The notes under the pieces: model-generated
Databases searched by the model: none
What the model saw: the letters and a program-made list of their open reading frames with translations, nothing else
Told to the model about the DNA's origin: nothing
Part shown: positions 52,051 to 55,609 of the stretch, in pieces
How the letters are laid out: the number at the start of each line of letters is the position of its first letter
How positions within the stretch are numbered: the first letter of the stretch is position 1
Program-made: the position numbers and the translations under genes
Source of the DNA: Brevundimonas sp.
GTDB taxonomy: Bacteria > Pseudomonadota > Alphaproteobacteria > Caulobacterales > Caulobacteraceae
DNA length: 64,000 bases
Reading direction: 5' to 3'
Assembly: GCF_013912005.1 (NCBI RefSeq)
Contig: NZ_JACESB010000010.1
Span: 27,229-91,228 of the forward strand

Positions 52051-54048
52051 TCACATGCCAAGCTTGTGAAAGAAAATCTTGTTTCGCATCTCGGCATCTT
52101 TGAGCAACTTGTCCCAGCTTATCACCTCGATATAGAGGTTGATGTTGCCAAACCACATGAACCAACCCAGACCGTCCGGCATACGAGTGAAGTTCTTTTC
52201 GCGTTCAAGCCAGCGTTCGACCTTTGGCGTGAGATCGCACACTATATAACCGTAGAATGTGGTGCTCTCTGAGACATTGATCTTGCGGCCCGCCGGCGTG
52301 TTGAATTTTTGGTCTCGGAACCCATTCACGTAGCGGACAATCTGCTGGACCGGGTCCTCGGCCGAAGGACCAACGAAATCGTCCCGACCCGGCCGTTTAA
52401 ACTCAAAAATAATGATGGGATTACTGGCTTCGTTGTCACCTCGATAAGCGATCTTTCGGTTGTACACAGCCAAGTCAGCGCGATCAGACCCCGCCCCATT
52501 AACCGGCTTATCGGAGGACAGATAGCTCGTGAAATTTAGTCGCTCATCCAAGATCCACAGGTTGTGCTGATCATATTCTAGGTCGTCGGAATCGCGACGC
52601 CGCGGGATGATTATGTCGTGGACGTCGCCTTCTGCTTGGTGCTTACCAGCATCATTCAGTTCAAGCGACTTGCGGAACAGCTCGAGGACGCATTTCCGCG
52701 TTGAGACGTAGTGAATGAGATCATTCTTGCTGGACTGCGACAGGCTATCGACCAGCCGGGCAACTCTATCACCGAGATTTGCGGTATCAGGGTCGGCGAG
52801 AACCTGCGCAACGTCTCTCCGCACTTTAACGTCTCGATGAAACTTCTCCTTCTGGAGATGAAGCTCTATCTCCTGTGCTGAGGGGTTCATAGAAAGGCCT
52901 GACAAGTCGGCATCATTGACCAGAGTGGTGTGCCAAGGAGCCTCCTCCGTGACGTAGGCTCGAACCCGCTGGGTCTTGCGCTCACGACGCGTCGCGATCT
53001 CCCCACCAACCGTCTCCCGAGCGACCTCCGCCGCCCGCTCCTCGATCTGCGCTTGGCTGATGCCAAGGAAGAGATCGGCGTCACGTCCGAACTCGAAGGT
53101 ACCGCGCTCAAGAGAGACGTTCCTGTCGAGATAGTCGCCATAGACGTAGGCCTTGATAATGAAGTTCCGGCCGCGACCGGCGTCGGGAGCCGGGTCATAG
53201 AAATCCTCGGCAAACTCCGGAATGAAGGCCTGTATGGTCGTGTCGGTTACCTCACGGCGATGGGCAACCAAGGCGATTTTGCTCTTCTGCGAACGGGGCG
53301 AGAAGAACTTGAATACGCGGACGCGAAACGTCTCGACGCCCGCCGTGCCTACAGCTGTGAATTCGGGCGCGACGACCGACAACTCCTCTATCTGGCGGTC
53401 CGCGGTCTTGAGGTAGTCGCTGAGGACGACCTGGGCCTCAGTGTCAGCGTCGCGCACGACGATTCGCGGGCAGGGAGTCTTATCGTCCACTAGGTAAGGC
53501 AGCAGCTTTTCGACAAGGATGCGGGCGATAATGTCCAGGCCCTTGTCGGGAAACTTGCCAGATCGGATTCCGGTTAAGGTGACGGTGGATCCAGTCGGGC
53601 CGGTCGCCACGGGTGCGAGCGTCTCGCCTACTATGATGTCCTTCTCGAAGCCCATCGCGAAGGTCCTGAGACGGAAGTCATCTCCCTCTCGGAACACACT
53701 CTCGATCCGTACATCCGTGAAATATTTCAGGCAGGTGAAACGGCCGAAGCCCTTTCCGCCCTCTGAGGCCTTGTTGTCGGTGAAAAACGTGTCGAAGGCC
53801 TCACGATTGGCGGCATCGAATCCGATCCCGGTGTCGGTCACTGAGAAGCCTTCGACACCCCGGGTGTGCTCGATCAGATCCTCATCGCCCCCGCGAAGGA
53901 CGGTAACCCTAATCTCACCCAGTGTAGCGCCCCCCGCCGCCGCGATGGCTTGGATTCCGTTTACAATGAGCTCAATAACCGGCGTGTAGATCGACGTACT
54001 GCCGGCGCGGATGTTGTCCACGGCGCGCCTGATGTTGACGTTGCTCAT
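52051..54048 (-). CDS. GHKL (Hsp90/MutL-type) ATPase fused to a PD-(D/E)XK-like nuclease domain
   Basis: A 665-aa protein. The N-terminal GHKL ATPase shows the N box (VIELIVNGIQAI; Glu26, Asn30), the G1 box VTDTGIGFD (Asp72) and the G2 lid GGKGFGRF at 97-104, with GSTVTL at about 153-158. The middle (about 230-480) is helical with no recognised fold. The C-terminal region has SDRADLAVYNRK (Asp525) and IIIFEFKRPGRDD (Glu549-x-Lys551), then PVQQIVRYVNGF and YGYIVCDL: the D...ExK and helix-Q layout of PD-(D/E)XK endonucleases. The ATG at 54048 is chosen as homology begins there; the frame upstream is not protein-like. GC is well below neighbours. A solitary ATP-gated nuclease fits a phage-defence gene, but no named system was identified. 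Confidence 0.75.
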   Translation of the reverse strand: MSNVNIRRAVDNIRAGSTSIYTPVIELIVNGIQAIAAAGGATLGEIRVTVLRGGDEDLIEHTRGVEGFSVTDTGIGFDAANREAFDTFFTDNKASEGGKGFGRFTCLKYFTDVRIESVFREGDDFRLRTFAMGFEKDIIVGETLAPVATGPTGSTVTLTGIRSGKFPDKGLDIIARILVEKLLPYLVDDKTPCPRIVVRDADTEAQVVLSDYLKTADRQIEELSVVAPEFTAVGTAGVETFRVRVFKFFSPRSQKSKIALVAHRREVTDTTIQAFIPEFAEDFYDPAPDAGRGRNFIIKAYVYGDYLDRNVSLERGTFEFGRDADLFLGISQAQIEERAAEVARETVGGEIATRRERKTQRVRAYVTEEAPWHTTLVNDADLSGLSMNPSAQEIELHLQKEKFHRDVKVRRDVAQVLADPDTANLGDRVARLVDSLSQSSKNDLIHYVSTRKCVLELFRKSLELNDAGKHQAEGDVHDIIIPRRRDSDDLEYDQHNLWILDERLNFTSYLSSDKPVNGAGSDRADLAVYNRKIAYRGDNEASNPIIIFEFKRPGRDDFVGPSAEDPVQQIVRYVNGFRDQKFNTPAGRKINVSESTTFYGYIVCDLTPKVERWLEREKNFTRMPDGLGWFMWFGNINLYIEVISWDKLLKDAEMRNKIFFHKLGM

Positions 54049-54261
54049 AAGCCTTGAATCCCGCCGGTGCCCCGGATGCTCCGATCCATCACCGTAGTAA
54101 GGGTTGGCCGGGGTGCGCAATGCAGGCCTCGAGCATCGAGGAACAAATGTAGAACATTGATAGCTCGCGGCCGCTCTGAAGTCCATTCGGTTGAACATTG
54201 CCGAACAGGCTCCGACGATTTTGCTGCCACCTCATTTGCGGCGTGCTGTCGGGCCGAGAGC

Positions 54262-54439
54262 GCAAAAAAGCCGCCGCAGCGCCCTCGCGCCACGGCGGCT
54301 CTTTCATAGCCGTCCGACAGGTCGGCCGGGGGCTTGGCCCGCCAGCTTCTCGTCGATGAACTTCACGGCGTCGCCGACCGTCTGGACGGACTCGGCGGCG
54401 TCGTCGGGGATCCCGATGTCGAACTCTTCCTCAAAGGCC
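54262..54439. repeat. Direct repeat copy A: duplicated acpP 3' end plus terminator
   Basis: This 178-base stretch aligns without gaps to 55432-55609, with seven mismatches by my count. It carries the last 35 or so codons of acpP and the downstream terminator. The left boundary is at GCAAAAAAG and the right boundary falls at an abrupt end of similarity inside the acpP codons for AFEEEF, next to the alpha/beta hydrolase stop. Confidence 0.9.
54264..54300 (-). terminator. Terminator copy in the duplicated acpP end
   Basis: A 14-bp stem with GAGG loop and a run of T on the minus strand, identical in the stem to the terminator after intact acpP. It would end transcripts from the alpha/beta hydrolase and insulate the GHKL-nuclease gene. 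Confidence 0.85.
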
Positions 54440-54446: not shown

Positions 54447-55289
54447 TCACCCGCCGAAGCAGCTGCGTTCGATGAAGCTCCGCGCCGCGGCCGAGGCCTC
54501 GGAGGGGTTGTGGCCGCCGTCGAACTCGAGGGCGGCGAAGGGGGCGTTGGCGGCGCGCAGGGCCTCGACCAGCGGAACGTAGTGGTCGGCGAACGGCGCG
54601 GCGGGGTCGCGGCGGCCGCCGGCGACGAAGACCGGGCGGTCGGCCAGTTCGGCGGCGCGCCGGGTCAGGCGGTGGGCGTCGGCCGCGTCCACGGCCGCGG
54701 CCATGAAGCCGTCGACTCCCGCCGGTCCAAAGCGGGCGGCCGAGGGGTCGACGGCGAAGCTGTCGAGATCGGTCTTCCACGCCGAGCGGTATTCGGCGTC
54801 GGTGGACCAGCGCGCCGCGATGACCCCCATGTCGGCCGGCACGAGGGCGGCCACGCAGCGCACGCCGGGGTCGCCCGCCGCGGTCTGGAGCGCGACCCAG
54901 CCGCCGTAGCTGACGCCGAGCAGGCCGATGCGGTCCGGGTCGGCGCCGGCCAGACCCTGCCCCTTCAGCCAGGCCACCACCGCCGCCCCGTCCTCGCGCG
55001 AGGCGGCGACGCTGATGGTTCCGCCCGAGGCGCCGGTGCCCCGGTACTGCGGCAGGACGACGGAATAGCCGGCGGCCTGGAGCTCGGTGGCGACGCGCGG
55101 GATGTTCGGGCCCGCCGGGAAGCCGTTGAACAGCACGATCACCGGGCGCGCGCCCTCGCCCGCCCCGTCGAGAACCCGCGCCGCCAGGGCGTCGCCGCCG
55201 GACGGAATGGACACGTCGCGCGGCGGCGTCTGGGCGACGGCGGCGGCGGGAAGGGCCAGAAGGGCGACGGCGCAGGCGAGGGACTTCAT
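54447..55289 (-). CDS. Exported alpha/beta hydrolase
   Basis: A 280-aa alpha/beta hydrolase. A signal peptide ([17 protein letters not shown], cleaved near residue 20) directs it to the periplasm. [12 protein letters not shown] is the nucleophile elbow GxSxG with Ser at about 128. Asp is likely in [15 protein letters not shown] and His in [10 protein letters not shown]. It resembles dienelactone-hydrolase/peptidase-type members; substrate unknown. The ATG at 55289 is favoured because the signal peptide begins there. Its stop is immediately next to the acpP remnant, and its upstream side borders the terminator of intact acpP, so it is flanked by the two repeat copies. Confidence 0.83.
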
Positions 55290-55431
55290 GAGAGGCTTCC
55301 GAAAGCGGCCGGTCCGACCATCGAACCGGCCTGCCCTCCGTCGCACACCCGACCCGCGGATCACGCTTAAGCTTTTGTCATGACGGCGAATTCACCCGTG
55401 AGGCCGCGCGGCGGACCGGAGAGATGCGCAG

Positions 55432-55609
55432 GCAAAAAAGCCGCCGCAGCGCCCTCGCGCCACGGCGGCTCCTTCATAGCCGTCCGACAGGTCGGCCGGG
55501 GGCTTAGCCCGCCAGCTTCTCGTCGATGAACTTCACGGCGTCGCCGACCGTCTGGATGTGCTCGGCGGCGTCGTCGGGGATCTCGATGTCGAACTCTTCC
55601 TCGAAGGCC
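55432..55609. repeat. Direct repeat copy B: 3' end of intact acpP plus terminator
   Basis: The counterpart of 54262-54439, offset by exactly 1170 bases with no insertions or deletions. It covers the C-terminal part of acpP and its terminator. Confidence 0.9.
55434..55470 (-). terminator. Intrinsic terminator after acpP
   Basis: On the minus strand AGCCGCCGTGGCGC-GAGG-GCGCTGCGGCGGCT pairs along 14 bp (two G-T) and is followed by six T. A strong terminator that would isolate acpP from fabF. Confidence 0.88.

Follow-up and report, generated by a model that had tools for sequence, protein, structure and literature searches.

The analyzed window, a stretch of 64,000 nucleotides taken at its full length, carries on its minus strand the gene P0001 (52051..54048), which encodes a 665-aa GHKL ATPase/E-D-ExK nuclease of the paraMORC3 type that resembles VcSduA. 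The open reading frame is whole and complete across 52051-54048(-), with no break in the frame, and its strand, coordinates and length are those given by an earlier sequence-only reading of this DNA. The ATG at 54048 is the likely start codon, as opposed to the start of the longer open reading frame at 54198, because Met1 coincides with the start of the alignment for most relatives. The protein has three parts: a GHKL ATPase domain assigned by Pfam, motifs and Foldseek (residues 1-160, 53569..54048(-)), a clamp-like middle made up of a transducer-like alpha/beta domain followed by long helices (residues 161-440, 52729..53568(-)), and a PD-(D/E)XK nuclease domain related to that of Shedu (DUF4263/SduA_C; residues 441-665, 52054..52728(-)). 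By reading of the sequence, the GHKL motifs consist of E26/N30, D72-G74-G76 and GGKGFGR at 97-103, and the C-terminal motifs of D525 and E549-x-K551, with E473 completing the E-D-ExK core. The N box, the DTGIGF region, the lid, D525 and E549-x-K551 were all present as the sequence-only reading had described them. HATPase_c was the sole Pfam match of P0001 (4.5e-6), and searches with this protein alone against Pfam, NCBIfam, PADLOC and PHROGs returned nothing beyond the GHKL domain.

Conservation was assessed in an alignment of 70 rows (A2), consisting of P0001 and 69 relatives. Identical in all 70 rows were E26, N30, D72, G74, G76, G97, G100, G102 and R103 in the ATPase and E473, H477, D525, E549, K551 and E641 in the C-terminal part, the residues of both catalytic sites among them, while two lid positions were less strict (G98 in 64/70, K99 in 66/70). 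R265, which was kept in 69/70 rows, may be the catalytic basic residue of an S5-type domain. The spacing from the ATPase glutamate to the nuclease lysine is 525 residues in P0001 and ranges from 508 to 546 over the 70 rows.

A full-length AF2 model of P0001, built from an alignment of 61 rows, reached a pLDDT of 86.4 and a pTM of 0.70. Foldseek comparison of this model with the PDB gave 146 matches at E <= 1e-3, the best 50 of which were GyrB/ParE, topo II, topo VI-B, Hsp90-family and SMCHD1 entries; the alignments of these 50 listed matches spanned 379-565 columns, so that the transducer domain was matched along with the ATPase. The middle region had been described from the sequence as long and helical, and this holds for residues ~332-462, which are mainly helical in the AF2 model, whereas residues ~160-330 are of mixed alpha/beta, transducer-like structure. 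When the nuclease domain was modelled alone (residues 440-665; pLDDT 86.2, pTM 0.85), the strands around D525 and E549-x-K551 were, on reading the model, compatible with a PD-(D/E)XK core. Foldseek of this domain found nothing at E <= 1e-3; the top seven matches were all McrBC entries (0.014), NucC (0.056), FokI (0.087) and Nt.BspD6I, which are no more than suggestive of a PD-(D/E)XK fold. Shedu structures were absent among the 50 matches listed for the nuclease domain, though they are in the PDB (8ti8, 8ti9, 8ps4). Searches of the PDB by sequence matched only GHKL domains, those of histidine kinases, topo VI and Mlh1 for the 70-row profile (E 0.018 or worse) and GHKL domains likewise for the single P0001 protein (0.023 or worse), and the nuclease-domain profile gave one irrelevant match (0.91). 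A structure prediction lacking a nuclease fold in the C-terminus, which would have spoken against the sequence-only reading, did not come about, although support for the fold from Foldseek of the domain alone is weak, with no match at E <= 0.001.

The relationship of the nuclease domain to Shedu appeared in profile-profile comparison, which has greater sensitivity than the Pfam search. The Pfam SduA_C model matched 0/70 rows at E <= 1, nothing in P0001's own genome at E <= 10 and none of three Vibrionaceae relatives (L270, L271, L272). When 61 nuclease domains of the P0001 family (A4) were compared by hhalign with a Shedu SduA_C set of nine domains, eight from a PF14082 genome search and one from an annotated Shedu protein (L214), the result was Prob 93.6 with E 2e-7 over 171 columns, and the D...ExK catalytic strand and the C-terminal strand/helix were in register; this and the following hhalign E-value refer to single comparisons. 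The same 61 domains matched two GHKL-SduA_C proteins, L246 and L247, with Prob 94.5 and E 8e-8, and these two proteins matched classical Shedu with Prob 95.3. Controls remained low, at Prob 0.35 for the HsdR N-terminus (a two-row alignment) and 0.18 for GIY-YIG against the A4 domains, and at Prob 1.3 for Shedu against HsdR. By these comparisons P0001 is 'Shedu-related' rather than 'Shedu', since the curated Pfam SduA_C model does not recognize it and the profile-profile test does. PADLOC run on the 70 rows gave 12 models, each in 1-7 rows, with a best E of 4e-4 (TmtA appeared in one row, at 0.014), and these matches were rejected as family assignments. Surveys using Pfam SduA_C or the 2023 PADLOC models would overlook this branch, given the 0/70 result and that best E-value. 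A scan of viral contigs with a Shedu protein returned no relative.

The composition and the position of P0001 both set it apart from its surroundings. The gene has a GC content of 0.566 and a GC3 of 0.69, against GC3 values of 0.92-0.97 for fabF, mltG, acpP and the hydrolase gene, in agreement with the low GC content noted earlier. The insertion said to break the acpP-fabF order was borne out as well: the two genes are separated by 108-275 bp in 30 of 34 hand-picked congeneric stretches and by ~4.3 kb here. In the four exceptional stretches the gap was 4.8 kb (L066) or fabF was not found within the stretch (L063, L064, L076). The GHKL gene, its neighbor P0002 and the hydrolase gene were found in none of the 34 congeneric stretches (tblastn, 1e-8). 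Since the close congeners L063, L064, L066 and L076 carry other material there, our data suggest that the acpP-fabF junction repeatedly receives insertions in this lineage. By reading, copper-ATPase-like and MerR-type regulator-like ORFs were seen at the junction in L066, a 2006-aa ORF in L064 and a transposase-like ORF in L063.

P0001 shares the insertion with an orphan gene of 210 aa that is convergent to it, with an alpha/beta hydrolase gene and with a duplicate of the acpP tail. The hydrolase gene (54447-55364) is flanked by the two copies of the tail, which form a direct repeat: a partial duplicate of the acpP 3' end and terminator at 54262-54439(-), 178 bp in length, is 96% identical to 55432-55609. 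An acpP search of 121 genus genomes matched 117, and among the matches listed, which leave aside the weakest, no other genome of the 117 showed a copy of the tail on the contig that carries acpP. Two long acpP matches on two contigs were seen in G212, an assembly with 6% contamination, and split acpP pieces in G311 and G304, at contig ends or on other contigs. The repeat was considered as an attachment site; by reading, no integrase-like ORF was seen between acpP and fabF.

The orphan gene, P0002 (51412..52044(+)), lies in the same low-GC insert and is of similarly foreign composition (GC3 0.58); it matched no Pfam, PADLOC or PHROG family. A homologue is found in G195 (79%), and when the whole window was compared by blastn with 13.5 kb around that homologue, the P0002 stretch was the only match. 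P0002 was rejected as a partner of P0001, and is probably not one, because its homologue in the G195 region stands without the rest of the window. Relatives of P0002 were observed on two cyanobacterial plasmids and one Bacteroides plasmid, and in a congener region (L077) with ORFs that read as relaxase-like.

Relatives of P0001 are widely but thinly spread. When 84,980 species genomes were scanned, 297 relatives came up, the best 80 of which (41-63% identity in the best segment) were fetched for alignment and neighborhood work. The branch formed by these 80 covers Proteobacteria as well as records whose titles name Acidobacteria, Nitrospirae, Spirochaetes, Acaryochloris, Chlorobiaceae or candidate phyla, many of the records being MAGs. 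In the phylum search 117/398 genomes matched at E <= 1e-3, most matches listed being short and in the GHKL region, and 8/398, P0001's own included, matched at E < 1e-40. The family-level search matched 18/199 genomes, of which seven, counting P0001's own, reached E < 1e-30; among other congeners, two matched at 28-29% identity and 20 further listed did not. By tblastn, P0001 also matched 55 plasmid records, 46 with coverage of at least 80%, and among the 40 plasmid matches listed four had 50-60% identity and the rest 26-31%. One phage record was matched, beside an annotated integrase, and a viral scan matched 23 loci. In this phage, vB_RanS_PJN03, the GHKL nuclease (L027 2485-4509) is annotated as an N-acetylmuramoyl-L-alanine amidase, and in the tree the copy is indistinguishable from the viral contig L175. 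The tree partner of P0001 is L126 from Phenylobacterium. In L126 and a second Phenylobacterium locus, L154, the gene runs through more than one reading frame, perhaps owing to sequencing errors; L126 was used unmended, as read, and L154, which fell under the length limit, was left out. The low GC3, the sporadic relatives and the insertion at acpP-fabF together support horizontal acquisition of P0001.

The gene neighborhoods of the relatives were examined through 949 neighbor genes lying up to 8 kb from the 80 loci, which were called with a custom ORF scorer and then clustered, each recurrent cluster being annotated via one representative. With a class called when a cluster member lay within four genes of the GHKL gene, 35/80 loci adjoined five kinds of restriction-modification (R-M) or ATPase genes: an MmeI-type methylase, DEAD helicase or GIY-YIG protein (class A, 17 loci, all three in 12), a PDC-S06 ATPase (class B, 5 loci), a type III methylase or restriction enzyme (class C, 3 loci), a type IIG-like methylase (class D, 3 loci), or a type I methylase or restriction subunit (class F, 7 loci). 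On Vibrio fluvialis and Salinivibrio plasmids, a relative closes a type I R-M cluster. An MmeI-type methylase, a DEAD helicase, a GIY-YIG (T5orf172) protein and the GHKL nuclease, with ends mostly overlapping, occur side by side at L083 (3957-12001) and 11 further loci. The neighbor classes were clustered on a tree made by a quick method, yet 10 changes were needed for 6 groups, and partner associations therefore changed several times.

The surroundings were further compared with controls by PADLOC, with ten recurrent clusters set aside. In this comparison 326 models matched among 120 neighbor proteins and 14 among 110 controls (1e-10), figures that count models and not proteins because the models are redundant. 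The neighbors were reduced to one protein per cluster and the controls, taken from fixed positions in 20 genomes hand-picked from the phylum-search list, were not so reduced; 28/148 neighbors and 19/129 controls were left out. Eleven of the 14 control models were SduA models, each matched by one protein, and the control set therefore holds a Shedu gene by chance. Both the R-M/ATPase classes and the PADLOC excess over controls place homologues near defense genes, a check that the sequence-only reading had proposed, and its opposite, that homologues would always be core genes in conserved non-defense contexts, was not what we found. The gene had also been called solitary, which is true of the P0001 copy itself and does not describe the family, given the 35/80 fetched relatives beside recurrent R-M or ATPase genes.

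Taken together, the results favor the reading, to which we assign a probability of roughly 80%, that P0001 encodes a Shedu-like restriction nuclease of the paraMORC3 type whose activity, unaided by other genes, protects against phages or other incoming DNA. This reading is drawn from the kept catalytic residues, the Shedu-related nuclease, the sporadic spread, the foreign composition, the relatives on plasmids and phages, the defense-rich neighborhoods of relatives and the precedent of VcSduA. Against it count the Pfam SduA_C model, which recognizes none of the 70 rows, and Foldseek of the nuclease domain alone, with no match at E <= 1e-3 and no Shedu structure among the 50 listed. The proposal that a GHKL ATPase-nuclease fusion has a role in defense gains good support from the motifs, the Shedu link and the defense neighbors, and the P0001 copy itself would be active in that role.

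P0001 might instead be an orphaned accessory subunit of an R-M operon, parted from the genes it once worked with and by now inactive in defense, which we regard as unlikely. Because many relatives are the last genes of R-M clusters, P0001 may be left over from such a cluster and depend on partners that are missing here: a strongly supported clade of 35 rows in the quick tree, which includes P0001, holds 15/16 class A rows, and a co-directional upstream gene lies within 100 bp, often overlapping, at 42 of the 73 loci with both flanks. A search with PF20473 (MmeI methylase) gave matches in 7/14 control genomes and none in P0001's draft genome; the class A helicase likewise gave no match in the draft genome, in a search run without a positive control. 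It is the class A-rich clade together with these two null results that makes an orphaned subunit conceivable. On the other hand, the catalytic residues of P0001 are intact and its frame is whole, and its tree partner in Phenylobacterium is also outside the R-M classes. A co-directional downstream gene within 100 bp occurs at 18/73 flanked loci, and 25/73 have such a neighbor on neither side, so that solitary copies are common. VcSduA, moreover, works alone (PMC12137116).

A role in housekeeping DNA repair, MutL-like and unrelated to defense, is very improbable: the GHKL, transducer and nuclease layout is similar to that of nuclease-bearing MutL, and recruitment to repair was raised in 2008 for versions in non-RM contexts (PMC2292703), but the sporadic distribution (8/398 phylum genomes at E < 1e-40, two congeners at 28-29% identity and 20 further listed ones without a match), the foreign composition, the relatives on plasmids and phages and the defense genes near relatives all speak against it.

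If P0001 is a defense nuclease acting alone, its mechanism can be pictured by analogy with other GHKL proteins. P0001 would act as a homodimer in which the binding of ATP closes the N-terminal GHKL gates, and the transducer and the helical middle would clamp onto DNA, with free ends or replication/recombination intermediates as the probable targets. The capture of DNA would relieve inhibition of the C-terminal E-D-ExK nuclease, the released nuclease would cut the captured DNA, and ATP hydrolysis would reset the clamp. The homodimer, the clamp and the trigger by DNA ends are all features that we infer for P0001; classical Shedu is described as a DNA-end sensor (PMC12904381).

A broader and more tentative idea, which we think less likely than not, is that the GHKL-Shedu nuclease acts as a portable module for a second strike. 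On its own it would await phage DNA ends, and it would also have been joined repeatedly, often through overlapping genes, to restriction systems of unrelated kinds (MmeI-type, type I, type III, type IIG, PDC-S06 ATPase), whose cuts would supply ends for the ATP clamp. If this were true, one sensor-nuclease could act by itself and also supplement many other systems. The existence of solitary copies and of copies at the ends of R-M clusters makes this a testable question, namely whether the same nuclease both works alone and amplifies restriction.

Among known systems, the architecture of P0001 corresponds to paraMORC3 of Iyer, Abhiman and Aravind (2008), defined by a GHKL domain, an S5 domain and a C-terminal E-D-ExK domain (PMC2292703). 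P0001 has the N-terminal GHKL domain with intact ATP-binding motifs, an S5-type transducer domain with a basic residue (as seen in the Foldseek span, AF2 residues 161-330 and R265), and an additional C-terminal globular domain with E-D-ExK (E473, D525, E549 and K551, in 70/70 rows). Judged by these described features, P0001 is one more member of paraMORC3. The 2008 account reports a sporadic distribution, with some members in R-M operons and others as standalone genes, and it is for versions in non-RM contexts that recruitment to repair was raised (PMC2292703). The portion of that text available to us describes as neighbors no MmeI-type methylase with GIY-YIG and no PDC-S06 ATPase (PMC2292703). 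Compared with classical Shedu SduA (PF14082; PDB 8ti8, 8ti9, 8ps4), the nuclease domain of P0001 appears related by profile comparison and lies below Pfam detection, and P0001 has a GHKL/transducer N-terminus where classical SduA has other N-terminal domains. L246 and L247 are similar to P0001 in combining GHKL and a Shedu-type nuclease within one chain; they differ in a strong HATPase_c_3 match in the GHKL part and in a catalytic spacing of 477-478, they gave no blastp match to P0001 at E <= 0.01, and of the two only L246 passes the SduA_C cut-off.

The closest experimental counterpart is VcSduA of the Vibrio cholerae WASA lineage, a type I-D Shedu tested as a single-gene defense (PMC12137116). 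Like P0001, it is a single gene with a three-part layout of N-terminal GHKL, clamp-like middle and C-terminal PD-(D/E)XK (PMC12137116). According to the published accounts, E27A and K557A each abolish protection and growth curves are consistent with survival of the host (PMC12137116), and the protein defends E. coli against Drexlerviridae and V. cholerae against phage X29 (PMC12137116; PMC12409362). The catalytic glutamate and lysine are nearly co-positioned, at E27/K557 in VcSduA (spacing 530) and E26/K551 in P0001 (525), a likeness established through published residue numbering and Vibrionaceae relatives in place of VcSduA's own sequence. These relatives came from a search of the family of an Aliivibrio MAG, in which 4/296 genomes matched at E <= 1e-20. 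With ATG start codons chosen by us, on which the numbering depends, L270 and L272 have E27/K557, as in VcSduA, and L271 has E27/K556; each of the three aligns end to end with P0001 at 30-33% identity, with all checked residues conserved. Since the Vibrionaceae relatives share the numbering and align end to end, it is very likely that P0001 and VcSduA belong to a common family, and P0001 is very probably a VcSduA homologue. The sequence-only reading knew of no described single-gene system with this order of domains, a claim that gives way to both precedents: paraMORC3, with its standalone genes, has the same architecture (PMC2292703), and VcSduA is an experimentally tested single-gene example (PMC12137116). 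P0001 most likely belongs to this recently recognized form of single-protein anti-virus defense rather than to a new kind, and would add a Caulobacteraceae-type chromosome to the range of the GHKL-gated, Shedu-like nucleases, a class validated only recently.
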